Shown here: one piece after another, positions 11,971 through 44,606 of the stretch
How positions within the stretch are numbered: position 1 is the first letter of the stretch
How the letters are laid out: every line of letters starts with the position of its first letter
Assembly: GCA_017467605.1 (NCBI GenBank)
Contig: JAFUSQ010000002.1
Span: 1 to 48,027, forward strand
DNA length: 48,027 nt
Direction: 5' to 3'
Source: a bacterium
Lineage (GTDB): Bacteria; Cyanobacteriota; Vampirovibrionia; Gastranaerophilales; Gastranaerophilaceae
Notes under the pieces: generated by a model
What the model was told of the DNA's origin: nothing
The model's database searches: none
The model's input: the letters and a program-made list of their open reading frames with translations, nothing else
Translations under genes and position numbers: made by a program

Positions 11971-11993
11971 AATAGCCTCCGATGTAACAGTTG

Positions 11994-12056
11994 TCTTTCT
12001 GAATTTAATTCAGAATCTATCTTTATATAGACTTTGAAACGATTTCAGGGTGACAA
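11994..12056. repeat. Dispersed palindromic repeat, TCTGAA..TTCAGA family
   Basis: GTCTTTCTGAATTTAATTCAGAATCT at the left and ACTTTGAAACGATTTCAGGGTGACA at the right form the two arms of a palindromic element between the divergent methyltransferase and mutL genes. Related arms are seen at 19169-19194, 40861-40890, 16985-17010 and 44440-44470, so it is a dispersed family. No coding function. Confidence 0.6.
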
Positions 12057-14293: not shown

Positions 14294-15031
14294 ATGGAAA
14301 CATTGGATAATAAAGCAGAATGTAGGTTAGACTTTAGTCTACCTGTTAGGGAAAAGAAGGCGGGGTTTACGTTAGCAGAAGTTTTGATTACTATAGGCAT
14401 AATCGGGGTTGTGGCAGCGTTGACTATTCCAAATTTAATAACCGCATACAAAAGACATGTGATTGCAAGTTCCCTTAAAAAAGGAGTTTCCGTAATAAAT
14501 CAAACAATAAAACAATCAGAAGCCGAAAACGGCGAGATGGAAACTTGGGACAAAACAACAACACAAGATGTATTTATAGATAAATATATAAGACCTTATA
14601 TGAAAATTTCTGCGACTTGCCCTGATGTAATTACAGATTGCGGGTATAAATATGTTAGTGGTAATAATGTTTGGAAATATTTAAATAATAAAAGTTATGT
14701 TAATCCAAATTTCAATAACCGAATTCCATTTCTCACAATGGATAGTATACTGTATACATTTGCATATGTTCAAACAGTGGGTCAATTAATCGACGATAAT
14801 AATAGAACAATATTTATAGATATAAACGGACCTAAAGGACCAAATCAATTTGGGCAAGATGTATTTATTTTGTACAGAAATGAAGAAGCGGATTCAGTTA
14901 TTCCGTATGGTGCAGATAAACCTATTGAAGAAGTTCAGCAGGATTGTTCTAAAACAGGCAGAGGTTTTTATTGTGCAAGTTTAATTTACCAAAACGGTTG
15001 GAACATTCCTAAAGATTATCCTATTTATTAG
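14294..15031 (+). CDS. Prepilin-like protein (cassette 1)
   Basis: Type IV pilin/pseudopilin-like protein of 245 residues. Predicted prepilin-peptidase cleavage is KKAG|FTLAEV after residue 24, with Glu at +5 and a hydrophobic helix GIIGVVAALTIPNLI that anchors the subunit before assembly. The globular part has DINGPKGPNQFGQDVF, a loop shared with other prepilins here, and a C-terminal CASLIYQNGWNIPKDYP. The ATG has a strong ribosome-binding site (AAGGAG). The leader is longer than the usual 6-10 residues and contains a palindromic DNA segment. It is divergent from an XRE gene. Role inferred: minor pilin, pseudopilin or surface adhesin. Confidence 0.88.
   Translation: METLDNKAECRLDFSLPVREKKAGFTLAEVLITIGIIGVVAALTIPNLITAYKRHVIASSLKKGVSVINQTIKQSEAENGEMETWDKTTTQDVFIDKYIRPYMKISATCPDVITDCGYKYVSGNNVWKYLNNKSYVNPNFNNRIPFLTMDSILYTFAYVQTVGQLIDDNNRTIFIDINGPKGPNQFGQDVFILYRNEEADSVIPYGADKPIEEVQQDCSKTGRGFYCASLIYQNGWNIPKDYPIY
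14321..14347. repeat. Palindromic segment inside prepilin leader codons
   Basis: The bases around TAGGTTAGAC TTTA GTCTACCTG form a hairpin (AGAC/GTCT plus flanking AGGT/ACCT) within the leader-coding part of the 14294 prepilin gene. It resembles the GTAGGTTGAGC-type segments at 42592-42640 between acpP and fabF. It is short, so family membership is tentative. Confidence 0.45.
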
Positions 15032-22423: not shown

Positions 22424-22440
22424 TTATAAAGGAGTTTAGT

Positions 22441-23289
22441 ATGAAATTATTAAATGAAAACAAAATGAAAAGTCATTACGAGTTGCGAAGCAACGTAGTA
22501 ATCCCCTGCAAATCTTGCGAAGAATTGCGATTGCGATGCTCATTTCATTCGCTCGCAATGACAGGATTTACGTTGGCAGAAGTATTAATTACACTTGGTA
22601 TTATCGGGGTTGTTGCGGCACTGACTATTCCAACGCTTATTGCAAATATTAATGGGCAGCGTTATAGAAGCCAATTCAAGAAAACCATTTCAACCCTAAA
22701 TCAAGCAGTGAGAATGAATAAAGCAAATCATGATTGGGATTTTGCCGATTTAGAATTGTGTCAATCTGCAAATGACCACCCGGAAAATGTGAAATCTATC
22801 TGTGCAATTATAAACGGTAATCTCAAAGGAGTAAATTACCAACCATATAATTTGGTTGGAGAAGTAGAAAATAAAGATACTGATTACCATATCGATTTTG
22901 CAACAGGTGCGGACTCTGGTGATTTTAATGGTTCAATTGAAGGTGGGGGATATTATCAATTAGCTGATGGCTCAATATTTTTATACAGAGATGGGACAAA
23001 TTGTACCAAAAAAATAGGAGAAACTGTTGCTGAAGGGTTAGAAGGTTCAACAGGTCCAGGTGATGATACACATATGTTTTTGTGTAAAGGATACATAGAC
23101 GTAAACGGTAAAACATTACCAAATAAAGAAGTAAAATGTTCAGGAGATGCTACCACAGGTTGGACTCCTGAAACTCCTTGTGTTGTTAAAAATAGTGATA
23201 TAACAGATGTTTTTCCTGTAGTATTTCATGATTCAACTATTGAACCTGCAACAAACGCATCTGCTTACGTATTGAATAATACTAAATAG
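22441..23289 (+). CDS. Prepilin-like protein with repeat-expanded leader (cassette 3)
   Basis: Prepilin-like protein of 282 residues. The start at 22441 has an excellent ribosome-binding site (AAAGGAG), giving a 42-residue leader before AMTG|FTLAEV. Most of that leader is encoded by a palindromic repeat (22472-22562). An ATG three codons before the cut exists but lacks a ribosome-binding site. The mature part is a close paralogue of the 41669 product: SQFKKTISTLNQAVRMNKANHDW is shared and both end TNASAY followed by V/I-LN. DNA identity is 103/104 over 22642-22745. The remainder is diverged and contains a Gly/Asp-rich insert (EGLEGSTGPGDD). Confidence 0.87.
   Translation: MKLLNENKMKSHYELRSNVVIPCKSCEELRLRCSFHSLAMTGFTLAEVLITLGIIGVVAALTIPTLIANINGQRYRSQFKKTISTLNQAVRMNKANHDWDFADLELCQSANDHPENVKSICAIINGNLKGVNYQPYNLVGEVENKDTDYHIDFATGADSGDFNGSIEGGGYYQLADGSIFLYRDGTNCTKKIGETVAEGLEGSTGPGDDTHMFLCKGYIDVNGKTLPNKEVKCSGDATTGWTPETPCVVKNSDITDVFPVVFHDSTIEPATNASAYVLNNTK
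22472..22562. repeat. Palindromic repeat (GTCATTACGAG..CTCGCAATGAC) inside prepilin leader
   Basis: Ends GTCATTACGAG (22472) and CTCGCAATGAC (to 22562) are inverted with one mismatch. The left half matches 38305-38370 almost base for base (shared TAGTAATCCCCTGCAAATCT and the following bases). The termini match those of 38432-38533. The whole element is translated as part of the leader peptide without a stop codon. Confidence 0.85.
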
Positions 23290-35520: not shown

Positions 35521-35853
35521 CTAATTCTTTTTTAATTCTTTGAGATTCATAATTGTTTTATATATGTATTCAATTTCTGCTTGCGGGGCATCTGATAGCC
35601 AGTTTGAAATTTTATTTTGAATAATTTTTGAAGGAAGTTTGTGCTCGTAGTTAAAAAGTTCCATAACAGGAATATCAAAAACTTTCGCAATCAAGTCAAG
35701 TTTTTCCGGCTGCGGAAAATGTATGCCTGATTCGATTTTAGAAATGTGATTGGGTTCCAGTCCTATAAGTTCAGACAACTTTTCTTGAGTAAAATTATTT
35801 CTTTTTCTGAGTTCTTTAATTCGTTTTCCTATAAGTTTTTTGCATGAATCCAT
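35521..35853 (-). CDS. XRE-family HTH regulator (cassette 4)
   Basis: A 110-residue protein: KELRKRNNFTQEKLSELIGL and EPNHISKIESGIHFPQPEKL make up the HTH domain, followed by FDIPVMELFNYEHK and a helical tail of about 40 residues. It is closest in the window to the XRE product at 41820 (EPNNLSRIENGKNYPTPENL, LYLFEHH). Ribosome-binding site AGGAG. It is divergent from the prepilin gene at 36027. The cassette lies between fabH and fabD. Confidence 0.9.
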   Translation of the reverse strand: MDSCKKLIGKRIKELRKRNNFTQEKLSELIGLEPNHISKIESGIHFPQPEKLDLIAKVFDIPVMELFNYEHKLPSKIIQNKISNWLSDAPQAEIEYIYKTIMNLKELKKN

Positions 35854-35884
35854 ATATATCTCCTATTCAAAGATATTATATTTT

Positions 35885-35929
35885 TTCGTACCATTACATA
35901 TTGACTTACGATAGAAAATAATGTATTAA
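35885..35929. promoter_or_regulatory. Promoter and TTCGTA/TACGAA-type motifs of cassette 4
   Basis: On the plus strand TTGACT (35901-35906), 17 bases, TATTAA (35924-35929) could drive the prepilin gene. TTCGTA at 35885-35890 and TTACGA at 35906-35911 form an inverted pair flanking the -35, and TTCGTA recurs at 35932-35937. These are candidate binding sites of the divergent XRE protein. Confidence 0.4.
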
Positions 35930-36026
35930 TATTCGTATTACAATTGAATATGTGCAAAATTATGATATAATTCATCTGATTTATAGGTTATATTAGTTGT
36001 ATTGCAATAATAAAAGGAGGTAAAAA

Positions 36027-36839
36027 ATGGATTTAATGAAAAATAAAAGAAGTAAATTTAGGGGTAAATATAATTCCCTCGCCCCTTGTGGGAGAGGTTT
36101 AGAAATTCAAAAAATAAACTTCCCCTCTCCCACAACATCAATTGAGTGGGAGAGGGTGCCCGGAGGGCGGGTGAGGGAAGGGAGAGGGGGCAAGAAGGCT
36201 GCATTTACTCTCGCCGAGGTCCTAATAACACTTGGTGTAATCGGAGTAGTCGCAGCATTGACAATTCCTTCCCTTGTTACAAATTACCAAAAACGTCAAG
36301 TTGAGATTAAATTAAAAAAGTTTTATTCTACAATAAATCAGGTTGTGCGTGCTTCAATGGTGGATAATGATAGTCCTGAAGGTTGGCTTAGTGATTCTGT
36401 AGGTAAAAATTACAGTTACAATGAAGAAGTTAAATTTTTGCAAACATATATGCTTCCTTATATGAAATATAATGGTTATAAACGTTGTTATACAACTGTA
36501 TCTGATGGAGTATGTGTATATCTTTTTGACGGTGGAATAATGTGGTTTACCATTGATATTAATGGTTGTGATATTGCATATCTTTTGGATAATGATTGGG
36601 AAAATAGAGATAATAAGAAACAAAGAAAATATTTTGTTTTCCAGTTTAATAAAATTGCAGGTGCAGGAAATAAAAATTTAAATAGTGTTAATTTTGTTGA
36701 ACCTTATACTATGAGTTGGAATGGTACCCGAGAACAATTACTTGATGGAATTGGAAACAGTTGTAAACAACAAGGAGCATTTTGTACAAAACTTATACAA
36801 ACGAATAGCTGGAAAATTCCGAAAGATTATCCCTGGTAA
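36027..36839 (+). CDS. Prepilin-like protein with repeat-expanded leader (cassette 4)
   Basis: A 270-residue prepilin-like protein. From the ATG at 36027 (ribosome-binding site AAAGGAGG) there is a 59-residue leader before KKAA|FTLAEV, rich in Arg/Gly/Pro and encoded by a GC-rich repeat. The residue before the cut is Ala. The helix is GVIGVVAALTIPSLVTNYQ, and the C-terminus CTKLIQTNSWKIPKDYPW matches the 14294 and 17855 proteins. The DING loop is degenerate here. The start region AGGAGGTAAAAA-ATG-GATTTAAT is shared with the 38186 gene. It interrupts fabH-fabD. Confidence 0.87.
   Translation: MDLMKNKRSKFRGKYNSLAPCGRGLEIQKINFPSPTTSIEWERVPGGRVREGRGGKKAAFTLAEVLITLGVIGVVAALTIPSLVTNYQKRQVEIKLKKFYSTINQVVRASMVDNDSPEGWLSDSVGKNYSYNEEVKFLQTYMLPYMKYNGYKRCYTTVSDGVCVYLFDGGIMWFTIDINGCDIAYLLDNDWENRDNKKQRKYFVFQFNKIAGAGNKNLNSVNFVEPYTMSWNGTREQLLDGIGNSCKQQGAFCTKLIQTNSWKIPKDYPW
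36076..36191. repeat. CCCTCGCCCC / GGGAGAGGG repeat inside prepilin leader
   Basis: It starts CCCTCGCCCCTTGTGGGAGA and ends in GGGAGAGGGGGC, with CCCTCTCCCAC..GTGGGAGAGGG as an internal hairpin. The left end, including the preceding GGGTAAATATAATT, matches 38207-38232 nearly base for base, and the arms match the intergenic element at 19072-19250. All of it is translated in the leader peptide. Confidence 0.8.
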
Positions 36840-36915
36840 ATAGAACTCTTGAAATAACCCTTGTTTGTGTTATTATTCAATCAAAGTATAGAATAATAAT
36901 TAAGGGGTATGAGAG

Positions 36916-37869
36916 ATGACAAAAAAGATAGCGTTTGTATTTCCGGGACAGGGTTCTCAGACTGTTGGTATGGGAAAAGATTTATACGAAAGTTTTGAAG
37001 TATCAAGAAATGTTTTTGATACTGCAGATAAAGTTTTAAATAAAAGTATTACAAAATTGTGTTTTGAAGGTCCTGATGAGGATTTGAAACAAACTGTTAA
37101 TACTCAACCGTCAATTGTAACAATGTCAATTGCGGCATTAGAAGCTTTTAAATCTAAGTCAGGTATTACTCCTGCTTGTGTTGCAGGACACAGTTTAGGG
37201 GAATATTGTGCAATGTATTGTGCAGGTGTTATGAATTTGGAAACGACTTTTAAAGCTATTCAAAAAAGAGCAGACTTGATGGGTGAAACAAAAGGCGGTG
37301 CAATGGCTGCTATTTTGAACGCACCTGAAGGAAGTTTGGAAAAAGCATTAGAAGAAGCTTCATCTGTCGGATATGTTGATGTTGCAAATTACAATTCTCC
37401 TGCTCAAGTTGTTATTACAGGTGATGAAAAATCTGTTACAAAAGCAGGTGAAATACTGGCGCAAGCAGGTGCAAGAAGGGTTGTTCCTTTGGCAGTGTCA
37501 GGGGCATTTCATTCAAAATTTATGGAAAATGCAGGTGAAAATTTTAAAAGCTTTGTTGCTGAATTAGATTTAAATGATGCTTTAATTCCTGTATTTACAA
37601 ATGTTGATGCTCAAGCTACGGTTTTAGGTGCAGAGTTTAAAAACAAAATGCCGCGCCAGATTTATTCATCTGTACACTGGACTCAGACTATTCAAAAAAT
37701 GATAGCTGATGGTATTGATACATTTGTTGAAATAGGACCGGGTAAAGTATTATCAGGATTAATTAAAAAGACTGATGCGAGTGTAAAAACTTATAATATT
37801 TTTGACAAAGAATCATTAGAAAATACAGTAGAGGCTTTAAAATCAGAGTTTTCAACAACGGCAGTTTAG
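36916..37869 (+). CDS. fabD: Malonyl-CoA--ACP transacylase
   Basis: Transfers malonyl from CoA to ACP for chain elongation. The nucleophile elbow GHSLGE puts the catalytic Ser at residue 93, with His200 (SGAFHSKFM) as partner; FPGQGSQ at residues 9-15 and VETF-type C-terminal VEIGPGKVL complete the family pattern. 317 residues. It is separated from fabH by cassette 4 and from fabG by cassette 5 plus a secreted-protein gene. Confidence 0.96.
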   Translation: MTKKIAFVFPGQGSQTVGMGKDLYESFEVSRNVFDTADKVLNKSITKLCFEGPDEDLKQTVNTQPSIVTMSIAALEAFKSKSGITPACVAGHSLGEYCAMYCAGVMNLETTFKAIQKRADLMGETKGGAMAAILNAPEGSLEKALEEASSVGYVDVANYNSPAQVVITGDEKSVTKAGEILAQAGARRVVPLAVSGAFHSKFMENAGENFKSFVAELDLNDALIPVFTNVDAQATVLGAEFKNKMPRQIYSSVHWTQTIQKMIADGIDTFVEIGPGKVLSGLIKKTDASVKTYNIFDKESLENTVEALKSEFSTTAV

Positions 37870-38156
37870 TCGTCAGTAAAATTATAATCAAGATTAATAG
37901 ATTTTAATAATTCATCAGCCCGTATGTCTAACATGCGGGCTATTCTCAGCAATGTCGAAAACTTAATATCAAATAATCCGTTTTCAATTCTGCTCCAAGT
38001 TGCAGTGGTTAAATATCCTTTATTTAAGACAAACTCATTTAAAGATTTGGATTTTTCAAGTCGTAATTCTTTAATTTTTTTTCCAAGTTTGTGTAAATTT
38101 TCAATATCCTGCTGTTGCATACGTGTAATATTAATGTTAAAATGGTATATAAGCAT
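37866..38156 (-). CDS. XRE-family HTH regulator (cassette 5)
   Basis: HTH protein of 84-96 residues: LGKKIKELRLEKSKSLNEFV, GYLTTATWSRIENGLFDIKF and STLLRIARMLDIRADELLKS. The start may be the ATG at 38156 or at 38120; neither has a ribosome-binding site. The 38120 ATG lies inside the left arm of a perfect 12-base inverted repeat and the 38156 ATG touches the right arm. Its 3' end overlaps fabD by four bases. The cassette's intergenic region is only 29-65 bases, the tightest of the seven. Confidence 0.82.
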   Translation of the reverse strand: MLIYHFNINITRMQQQDIENLHKLGKKIKELRLEKSKSLNEFVLNKGYLTTATWSRIENGLFDIKFSTLLRIARMLDIRADELLKSINLDYNFTDD

Positions 38157-38166
38157 TACACGTATG
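38118..38166. promoter_or_regulatory. Twelve-base perfect inverted repeat, operator of cassette 5
   Basis: CATACGTGTAAT (38118-38129) and ATTACACGTATG (38155-38166) are perfect inverse complements separated by 25 bases. They cover the XRE start region and the region just before the prepilin ribosome-binding site (GGAGG at 38176-38180). The spacing, centre to centre 37 bases, would allow two bound dimers or a loop. Confidence 0.65.
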
Positions 38167-38185
38167 TAATAATTTGGAGGTAAAA

Positions 38186-39220
38186 ATGGATTTAATTAAA
38201 AGTGACAGGGGTAAATGTAATTCCCTCGCCCTATGGGAGAGGGAGTCCGAAGGACAGGAGAGTGGGCAGTCTGGATTGCCACGCGATCATAGTGACAGAG
38301 GCATGTCATTACGAGGAGCGCAGCGACGTAGTAATCCCCTGCAAATCTTGCGAGGAATTGCGATTGCGACGGGGGTAAATAAAACAAATTTAAAAGTCCA
38401 TACATTTACCCTTCATCACAGTGACAGTAACGTCATTGCGAGCACGAACGATAGTGAGTGCGTGGCAATCCAGAAAAATTCGTACAGAAACGACTGGATT
38501 GCTTCGTCGGACTTACATCCTCCTCGCAATGACGGGTGGTTTAATAAACGCAAAGAACTTATTCACTTAATCACTTATTCACCTATTCCCTTCAAAAAAG
38601 CGGGTTTTACCCTCGCGGAAGTTCTCATAACTATCGGCATAATCGGGGTTGTTAGTGCTCTAACTATTCCAGGTTTATATACAAAAATTCAGCATAAAAT
38701 CCTTGTAGAACAGTTTAAAAAAGCTTATGCCTCTGCAAATCAGGCATTAAAATTGGTTCAAGAAGAAAATGAAAAAGAATTTTTATGTTATTCAGATGGT
38801 TGGGGTTCATATAAACAATCTGAATGTGCAGAGTTTTGGGGGAAATTTTTTGCAATACAAAAAACTCCAAAACCTTGTAATGGTGGAAAATGCGGTGTGA
38901 AATATAAAAATCAAACACAAGTATTGAGTGAAGGCGGGAGTGTGCCAAATCCTCATTGCTCATTAAATGCAGATTTAATAAATGCTTATGTTCTACCAAA
39001 CGGTGTTATTTATCATCTAACATCTGGAGGTATTTTTTTTAGTTTGGATATCAATGGTAATGCAGGGCCAAACAGATGGGGTTATGATGTGTTTTATCTT
39101 ACTTGGATTAAGGATAATAGTAACGAATCTGCACCTTTAATGCTTGGTGAAAAAACTTGTTCAATAACCGAAAAAGGCGGTTATACATTTGAACAAATGT
39201 TGAAGGAAATTAAAAAATAG
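38186..39220 (+). CDS. Prepilin-like protein with about 140-residue repeat-derived leader (cassette 5)
   Basis: Prepilin-like protein of 344 residues from the ATG at 38186 (GGAGG just upstream; a TTG at 38174 overlaps that site and is rejected). The first 140 residues, before FKKAG|FTLAEV, are Arg/Ser/Asn-rich and encoded by at least three tandem palindromic repeats without a stop codon. No later ATG with a ribosome-binding site exists nearer the cleavage site. The mature part has GIIGVVSALTIPGLYTK, six or more Cys and the loop DINGNAGPNRWGYDVF, and ends LKEIKK, unlike the other five. It interrupts fabD-fabG and has its own terminator. Confidence 0.83.
   Translation: MDLIKSDRGKCNSLALWERESEGQESGQSGLPRDHSDRGMSLRGAQRRSNPLQILRGIAIATGVNKTNLKVHTFTLHHSDSNVIASTNDSECVAIQKNSYRNDWIASSDLHPPRNDGWFNKRKELIHLITYSPIPFKKAGFTLAEVLITIGIIGVVSALTIPGLYTKIQHKILVEQFKKAYASANQALKLVQEENEKEFLCYSDGWGSYKQSECAEFWGKFFAIQKTPKPCNGGKCGVKYKNQTQVLSEGGSVPNPHCSLNADLINAYVLPNGVIYHLTSGGIFFSLDINGNAGPNRWGYDVFYLTWIKDNSNESAPLMLGEKTCSITEKGGYTFEQMLKEIKK
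38223..38266. repeat. CCCTCGCCC / GGGAGAGGG repeat fragment in prepilin leader
   Basis: CCCTCGCCCTATGGGAGAGGG (given as two arms, CCCTCGCCC and GGGAGAGGG) followed by AGTCCGAAGGAC and GAGAGTGGG. It is the same family as at 36076 and 19072, and directly precedes a fragment of the GTGGCAATCCAG family in reverse (38270-38285). Confidence 0.75.
38305..38370. repeat. Truncated GTCATTACGAG repeat in prepilin leader
   Basis: It begins GTCATTACGAG and matches the 5' two-thirds of the 22472-22562 element, including TAGTAATCCCCTGCAAATCT, but lacks the right terminus. Translated in frame as part of the leader. Confidence 0.8.
38432..38533. repeat. Complete GTCATTGCGAG..CTCGCAATGAC repeat in prepilin leader
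   Basis: A perfect 11-base terminal inverted pair bounds 102 bases (exactly 34 codons), with an internal GTGGCAATCCAG..CTGGATTGC stem. The general form is a widespread type of bacterial palindromic repeat. Its length keeps the reading frame and no stop codon is present in the used frame. Confidence 0.85.
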
Positions 39221-39248
39221 AATTTATAAATATATGTAACGAACTATG

Positions 39249-39275
39249 AACGGAATTCTTTTAGAATTCCGTTTA
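39249..39275 (+). terminator. Terminator of the cassette 5 prepilin gene
   Basis: AACGGAATTCT (39249-39259) and AGAATTCCGTT (39263-39273) form a perfect 11-base-pair stem with loop TTT, then TTATG. It separates the prepilin from the next gene, whose promoter begins immediately downstream. Confidence 0.7.
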
Positions 39276-39284
39276 TGTTATAAT
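39276..39284 (+). promoter_or_regulatory. Extended -10 promoter of the duplicated-domain secreted protein
   Basis: TGTTATAAT is a perfect extended -10 (TGnTATAAT), 41 bases before the ATG at 39326 and directly after the preceding terminator. Confidence 0.6.
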
Positions 39285-39325
39285 TTGATTGGAAAAGCTT
39301 ATATAATAAAGGAAAATGGAAGGTT

Positions 39326-40985: not shown

Positions 40986-41669
40986 TTATTTTGCGGTATT
41001 CAAAATATAAGCAGAAGCATTTGTTGCAGGTGCAACTGTTGAATCATAAAATACTACAGGGAATATATCACCCATGTTTTTATTATCAACAATACAAGGT
41101 TTGTCAGGTGTCAATGTTGTTTCGACATCTCCCGAACAACTTACTTCTTTATTTGGCAAACTCACTCCATTTACATCTATAAACCCAACACAAAAATAAT
41201 TAAATTCGCTCTCATTATTTAAAACTTCTGTTACTGTTTTTCCGGGCAAAAGCGTACAACCCCCATCAACACTATCGAATTCCTCTGATATTCCAACAAT
41301 TGTTCCATCAGATAGGGTAAAACCATGCGTGTCTCCTATTTCAATGTGATACAAATTAAATTCATATAGATCAAATGCCAAATCATAGTAGCATGTAACA
41401 CCGGACAAATTATTATTAAATATTGTAGCAATATTTTCGTTTGGATTATCACAACCATTCCAAGAATAAGTTGCAAAATCCCAATCATGATTTGCTTTAT
41501 TCATTCTCACTGCTTGATTTAGGGTTGAAATGGTTTTCTTGAATTGGCTCCTATAACGCTGCCCATTAATATTTGCTATCAGTGTCGGTATAGTCATTGC
41601 TGCAACAACTCCGATAATACCTAATGTAATTAGTACCTCCGCGAGGTTAAATCCTGTTTTCTTTTTCAT
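40986..41669 (-). CDS. Prepilin-like protein with normal short leader (cassette 6)
   Basis: A 227-residue prepilin-like protein with a six-residue leader MKKKTG|FNLAEV (Asn replaces Thr at +2, Glu at +5 kept) and helix GIIGVVAAMTIPTLIANING. Close paralogue of the 22441 product: near-identical block after the helix, similar ending FPVVFYDSTVAPATNASAYI, but a shorter and divergent centre. Four or more Cys in the mature part. Ribosome-binding site AAAGGA. It is convergent with fabG and divergent from an XRE gene; the cassette splits fabG from acpP. It serves as the reference for what an uninvaded leader looks like. Confidence 0.9.
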   Translation of the reverse strand: MKKKTGFNLAEVLITLGIIGVVAAMTIPTLIANINGQRYRSQFKKTISTLNQAVRMNKANHDWDFATYSWNGCDNPNENIATIFNNNLSGVTCYYDLAFDLYEFNLYHIEIGDTHGFTLSDGTIVGISEEFDSVDGGCTLLPGKTVTEVLNNESEFNYFCVGFIDVNGVSLPNKEVSCSGDVETTLTPDKPCIVDNKNMGDIFPVVFYDSTVAPATNASAYILNTAK

Positions 41670-43915: not shown

Positions 43916-43965
43916 ATTTTAAATTTTTTAAAATGATATGAAGTGTTAACTTTTCATTGATTAAT

Positions 43966-44030
43966 AGGAGATTCCACGCTGCAAAAATTACGTCATTTAG
44001 AGCGAAGTGTGGAATCTTCGTAATTTTTAC
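43966..44030. repeat. Palindromic element downstream of fabF
   Basis: AGATTCCACGCT and its inverse AGTGTGGAATCT enclose AAAAATTACG..CGTAATTTTT inverted segments. The whole is a roughly 60-base interleaved palindrome in the 185-base gap after fabF. No exact second copy was noticed in the window. It may act as terminator or belong to the dispersed palindrome set. Confidence 0.6.
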
Positions 44031-44100
44031 ACCTCTGAATGAAATAATATTTTTGAGCATACAATAGGCAAAAAATTATATTTTTTGATTTAATATTTAT

Positions 44101-44403: not shown

Positions 44404-44606
44404 GGTAACTACATACCTGTTTCCGCTAAAAAACGTTAAAATTGTCATGCTGAACTTGTTTTAGCATCTTTCAATTTATTAGATTCCGAAACACCGAGTA
44501 GGAACAGAAAATTACGTTTCGCAAGCTCAACTAATTTTCTAGTCAGTTCGGAATGACATTATGATTGAGCTTTAATTTATTTTGTGGTAACTTCTATAGA
44601 ATTACC
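44402..44606. repeat. Long dispersed repeat, copy 2
   Basis: Second copy of the 16945-17160 element, with positions 44481-44567 identical over 87 bases. Ends AAGGTAAC and ATTACC are loosely inverted. As in copy 1 it lies immediately 3' of a plus-strand gene. The remainder of the 260-base gap 44404-44663 holds only the hairpin at 44621. Confidence 0.85.

Follow-up and report, generated by a model that had tools for sequence, protein, structure and literature searches.

Stacked dispersed repeats in the probably translated 140-codon leader of a prepilin gene from a gut bacterium of the Gastranaerophilaceae

A prepilin gene with a 140-codon leader

The window analysed here is a stretch of 48,027 nucleotides from the genome of a gut bacterium (G000; 2.19 Mb, 79 contigs), which its nearest FabD relatives place in the Gastranaerophilales. 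It holds six prepilin motifs. Four lie on the plus strand, at 14362, 22563, 36200 and 38602; the others are on the minus strand, and one of these is at 40986-41669. Between 36916 and 42493, fatty-acid synthesis genes (fabD, fabG and acpP by sequence) do not lie side by side: prepilins and small helix-turn-helix regulators, encoded on either strand, stand between them.

The gene at 38186-39220 (plus strand, as are all features described below for it) begins with an ATG at 38186-38188, directly preceded by TTTGGAGGTAAAA, within which lies the Shine-Dalgarno sequence GGAGG (38176-38180). Among the starts of the leader, this is the sole in-frame one with a Shine-Dalgarno match, and two paralogs, L182 and L130, share a near-identical start, GGAGGTAAAA-ATG-GAT-TTA. 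The frame then stays open for the 140 codons of the leader (38186-38605), which ends in FKKAG; its last codon is GGT (38603-38605), and TTT at 38606 opens the mature part. The cleavage motif G|FTLAEVLIT and the hydrophobic helix (38603-38662) match PF07963 at 9.5e-6, above the cut-off. FKKAG|FTLAEVLITIGIIGVVSALTIP is thus a class III (prepilin) signal motif, in which G/A|F-x4-E is followed by about 20 hydrophobic residues. The mature pilin-like domain (38606-39220, 204 residues and the stop) has paralogs both in this genome and elsewhere in the genus. A search for alleles in other strains yielded none: outside this genome, the best hit to the prepilin within the genus has 44% identity, and FabD relatives from named genomes reach 83% at best. 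Prepilins near fabD in relatives (L227, L263) were considered as syntenic orthologs and rejected, their identity with the window prepilins (about 31-35%) being too low for clear orthology.

The initial annotation had proposed a 140-residue leader running from the ATG at 38186 to FKKAG|FTLAE and free of stop codons; the start signal and the open frame bear this out, the other forward frames containing 4 and 16 stops. The leader DNA, which had been called GC-rich, is 45% G+C, and thus rich solely relative to an AT-rich genome. Studied prepilin leaders measure 6-26, up to about 30 residues (PMC4471445), so that the gene lies outside the short-leader range (6 to about 30 residues) of type IV prepilins, and the earlier remark that it exceeds known leaders, mostly under about 30 residues, is correct. 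Prepilin leader length has been described as variable (PMC10191384), and 140 residues are therefore compatible with membership of the type IV prepilins. No leader of comparable length was found in the prepilin reviews consulted.

Several repeat pieces are stacked in this leader (module numbers refer to the 13 repeat modules used throughout). An M4/M13-type module at 38204-38244, read as DRGKCNSLALWERE, consists of GACAGGGGTAAATGTAATTCCCTCGCCC and a hairpin with arms TCCCTCGCCC/GGGAGAGGGA (38222-38244; fold z -2.4), also written CCCTCGCCC/GGGAGAGGG. The M11-type piece GGGCAGTCTGGATTGCCACG (38264-38283), which encodes QSGLPR and is found again in other leaders, is the inverted-repeat partner of 38455-38474 and covers the CTGGATTGCCAC fragment at 38271-38282. 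The GTCATTACGAG element (38305-38373, right end approximate) is related to module M7; M7 reads CHYESERSEDVVIPCKSCK, and the window leader uses another frame, giving MSLRGAQRRSNPLQILRGIAIATG. A piece VNKTNLKVHTFT (about 38374-38410, limits approximate) is present in the leaders of L002 and L003 too. Module M2, a complete palindrome of 104 bases (38431-38534) with more copies in the same genome, is bounded by perfect inverted repeats of 12 bases, CGTCATTGCGAG (38431-38442) and CTCGCAATGACG (38523-38534), and folds at -47 kcal/mol (z -7.4). Finally, module M3, NKRKELIHLITYSPIPFKKA (KELIHLITYSPI..FKKA; about 38543-38601), adjoins the cleavage motif and recurs at other prepilins, with 16 in-frame copies and none out of frame in a first pass.

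At least three stacked repeats had been described in the initial annotation, and all four pieces that it named are present, namely TCCCTCGCCC/GGGAGAGGGA, CTGGATTGCCAC, GTCATTACGAG and the complete palindrome; it overlooked two more dispersed pieces, at about 38374-38410 and 38543-38601. The palindrome had been given as 102 bases with 11-base ends, which is this palindrome shortened by one base on either side, a codon-aligned form whose GTC starts at 38432. The repeats are not a matter of chance, since the leader DNA has matches at 59 places of the genome, and many of these places immediately precede another prepilin motif. An Rfam search of 35800-39300 gave no match. The leader is exceptionally long, built of stacked repeats and, by the frame statistics given below, very probably translated.

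Long leaders in the genome and its relatives

The pilin-like family of this genome is unusually large, with at least 150 places matching the prepilin motif (PF07963). We collected and examined 139 prepilin loci, taking in the stretches around prepilin genes and around repeat copies. Leader lengths range from 3 to 205 codons. Long leaders (45-205 codons) occur in 52 of the 139 genes and are mostly repeat mosaics, in which CHSELVSES..QVQGD, NDWIASSDLRPPRND, RGKCNSLAPCG, KELIHLITYSPIHFKKA and PRRTGYSATNFGKTPRLLRSA recur; modules and lengths vary from gene to gene, and numerous paralogs, some in the same families, have leaders of 3-20 residues. Two further prepilin leaders with repeat modules lie on the plus strand of the window. 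One of 59 codons (36027-36203; NSLAPCGRG...VREGRGGKKA|AFTLAE) is again repeat-built, its repeat stack folding with z -5.4. The other (22440-22565) has 41-42 codons and an M7-type module, RSNVVIPCKSCEELRLRCSFHSLAMT|GFTLAE; its start at 22440 is derived from a 41-codon leader ending at motif 22563.

The related genomes G013 and G022 hold 85 and 93 prepilin-motif genes. In G013, of the same genus, prepilin leaders reach 165 codons and are made from other repeats (HCEECRARRGNP, CHPERSEGSHNKKRFF, LIPAPCGRGSKG). Leaders in G022 (about 20 contigs) are nearly all short among the 26 prepilins examined. Named Gastranaerophilales contigs or relatives provide further long leaders, for example L266 and L289.

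Absence of a prepilin peptidase was considered and rejected: the gene is present at 13.3-14.4 kb of contig C46 (L413), with a divergent A24 domain. The encoded protein has the A24_N domain (PF06750, 4e-36), the cysteine motif CPKC..CAFC and both aspartate motifs, AGTDILE and FGEGDS. PF01478 (A24) was not found at the default threshold, the C46 peptidase scoring below the cut-off. Scores for PF01478 are poor throughout the genus, under or near the Pfam cut-off, and good in other families of the order, and the low score accompanies extra sequence in the A24 peptidase domain of the genus. G022 has a peptidase of the same divergent form, and short leaders. The gene at 38186 resembles type IV prepilins in its [G/A]FTLAEVLIT motif, hydrophobic helix, PF07963 match and genome-encoded peptidase, and differs from them in a leader far beyond the studied lengths and made of dispersed repeats. 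Cleavage of such very long leaders by this enzyme would be expected.

Reading frame and peptide content of the leaders

Selecting long open reading frames and then counting how often they are open is circular, and the frame was therefore tested at the level of genes. Every gene was used that has at least one of the 13 modules, in any frame, no more than 750 nt upstream; there are 71 of them. Between the farthest module and the motif, the DNA was open in the frame of the gene in 65 of the 71, and in 5 and 16 for the shifted frames. In the six remaining genes the module and the motif are 169-672 nt apart and the leader as listed has only 5-19 codons; the module is therefore upstream of the gene. 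Counted by hits, 219 modules are in frame within prepilin reading frames and 9 lie out of frame upstream of a prepilin; a further 93 are located elsewhere, and 30 reach the end of a contig or of the examined stretch. Leaders are thus enriched in modules, not their exclusive site, and part of the 93 sit in a prepilin whose motif was missed by the script (L208). Phase agrees in 816 of 943 leader pairs, a figure that is partly circular, leaders being picked as open reading frames. Indel lengths say little here: in BLAST alignments of leaders, about three-quarters of the gaps have a length not divisible by three, and most same-phase alignments are ungapped. In 46 of the 52 long leaders there is no other start with a Shine-Dalgarno sequence within 35 codons of the motif.

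This openness and the pattern of starts would be hard to account for unless ribosomes read the repeats. The repeats might alternatively be hairpin elements of a 5' untranslated RNA, with initiation at a weak start near the motif. They do fold strongly, and Di Nocera et al. 2013 (PMC3733652) judged many N-terminal REPs in some other genomes to lie outside the real reading frame; but the frame held from the farthest module, the scarcity of Shine-Dalgarno starts near the motif and the single such start of the window gene, at 38186, make an untranslated leader quite unlikely. Misjoining of short-read contigs at repeats, giving false mosaics, is suggested by the numerous contigs that end in or beside these repeats. 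Random joins, however, would not leave 65 of the 71 genes in frame, the window leader and many others lie well inside contigs, and the separate assembly of G013 has the same design with other repeats, so that we regard an assembly artefact as extremely improbable.

Little in the comparisons points to selection on the peptide itself. In leader copies situated over 90 nt away from the motif, substitutions fall nearly evenly on the three codon positions (366/445/471), and the mature domains of the paralogs have the usual third-position excess (5291/4037/10236). Ungapped leader pairs contain 1005 synonymous changes against 743 expected and 1802 non-synonymous against 1969, the pairs compared in such counts being non-independent and part of their divergence possibly predating insertion. 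Constraint on leader content would therefore be weak at most. A close pair of paralogs differs by one insert, the leader having 39 residues with it (L109) and 11 without it (L140). The initial annotation had suggested that so long a cytoplasmic domain might be functional. Such a domain could be, for instance, a selected peptide acting in regulation, targeting or chaperone binding. The slight synonymous excess and the preference of each module for one reading frame would fit such a role. It is opposed by the near-even codon-position changes, by modules and lengths that differ in every gene, by the use of unrelated repeats in other species, and by the paralog without the insert; a conserved function is unlikely because the modules differ per gene and short-leader paralogs exist in the same families. 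We consider a functional domain very improbable. By these comparisons, the frame is kept and the content of the peptide mostly not.

Origin and fate of the repeat-built leaders

The repeats resemble the RPEs, in-frame palindromic elements in Rickettsia coding genes (Ogata et al. 2000 and 2002, as summarised in PMC10969869), in being dispersed, multi-copy palindromes of about 100-150 bases that lie in frame and would be read as protein; what we propose is a likeness in kind. RPEs occupy internal sites of unrelated genes and are kept in the protein, whereas here a single family is concerned, the leader is expected to be cut off, and several repeat families are stacked per gene. We regard repeat-built leaders as a variant of what is seen with RPEs, in which the repeats are concentrated in the trimmed part of the protein. 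A non-pilin case of RPE-like internal insertion was also noted, an in-frame repeat CHCEEQRDVAIS inside a ribulose-phosphate 3-epimerase-like gene (L040:228-890, contig C6).

Many intragenic REPs are close to N termini and have often been considered untranslated, and their clusters encode 43-82 residues (Di Nocera et al. 2013, PMC3733652). The elements described here share short palindromes with them, but clusters reach 205 codons and the targets are prepilin leaders, the word 'pilin' being absent from the text of that paper. The complete element begins with CGTC, as in CGTC-tagged REPs; here, however, CGTC pairs with GACG in the 12-base ends, whereas the REP tag is unpaired. Repeat-built prepilin leaders, in Melainabacteria or elsewhere, were not reported in the open-access literature searched, subscription papers lying mostly outside that search.

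The way in which modules enter is best illustrated by M6 (GGTCCTCGCC...GCTCCGCGGGG), whose 28 best genome-wide hits all directly precede a prepilin motif. The M6 insert is flanked by FTLAE on both sides, as in L109 (KSAAFTLAE-GPRRTGYSATNCGKTPQLMRSA-GFTLAEVLIT); the paralog L140 shares the start of L109, ATGAAAAAATCTATTATTACACAAAAAAGTGCA, and lacks the insert. In G068, another species of the genus, a copy of the M6 family interrupts a prepilin FTLAE likewise (MKKDFTLAEVLAGRGNMLPVFSKAGFTLAEVLIT), and since it lies in the same motif, an M6-type element has probably entered FTLAE more than once. Elsewhere in the genus, other species carry the conserved first 30 bases of M6 (GGTCCTCGCCGGACGGGGTATT.TGCTACCAA) mostly outside long open reading frames. 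The coding site of FTLAE|V, GAG|GTCCT, resembles M6's own end. Entry could reflect either a target preference or homology of the element end with GAGGTCCT, and M6 may have spread over the 28 genes by recombination between prepilin genes. It is also conceivable, though we think it rather doubtful, that leaders are a preferred landing pad, M6 targeting FTLAE|V and always leaving a working cleavage site downstream, and that mobile repeats co-evolved with the expanding pilin family, lengthening leaders across the genus. Three Y1_Tnp (RAYT-like) genes are present (C46:16059, C5:2894 and C30:14481; L298-L300). None of the 13 modules has a significant match within about 1.5 kb of them, and in this the modules differ from RAYT-mobilised REPs or BIMEs; mobilisation in trans may occur.

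Copies outside prepilin leaders were seen as well. Those of leader modules M1 and M5 in the window are at 11992-12054, 43949-44042 and 44444-44493. Elsewhere, a copy of M1 lies within a 438-residue reading frame starting MRNVELLLPAGNIEKLKYAVKYGADAVYLG (L391, C30:300-2700), which we take to be peptidase U32-like. A reading frame of 153 residues (L387, C75:60900-63300) consists almost wholly of leader modules and has no downstream prepilin; it is possibly an orphaned leader.

Repeat composition, frame conservation, near-even substitutions and recurrence in other species were observed directly. The explanation that we favour, and hold with good though not complete confidence, is a translated, disposable leader that tolerates repeats. 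The divergent A24 domain of the peptidase, the lack of a comparably long leader in the reviews consulted and the occurrence of modules outside leaders count against it. Translation would start at ATG 38186 and give a precursor whose cytoplasmic leader is 140 residues long. This leader would have grown as dispersed palindromic REP/MITE-like repeats were inserted in frame again and again, or spread by recombination, into the segment that separates the original start codon from the cleavage motif. The prepilin peptidase would then cut after FKKAG and discard the repeat-encoded peptide. Insertions that keep the frame would be cheap and persist, and frameshifts and stops would be lost. In the best reading, selfish repeats are tolerated in leaders because the peptidase removes them, and the disposable leader would be a haven for selfish DNA; of the genome's roughly 150 prepilin genes, about 50 or more would serve in this way. 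Besides translation and cleavage, we infer that harmlessness is the reason for which the repeats are retained.

In Rickettsia, in-frame selfish repeats are known, and the survival of the proteins lacks a clear reason; here a candidate reason is that the peptide is cut off. Repeats that would be ruinous to most proteins appear to be tolerated in a leader that is discarded, and we offer as a rule that repeats accumulate in places where proteins discard sequence. Annotators should be aware that a pilin leader of great length can be genuine and that its sequence may be of little informative value. The long leaders also suggest that the prepilin peptidase tolerates lengths several-fold beyond those of the leaders studied so far.
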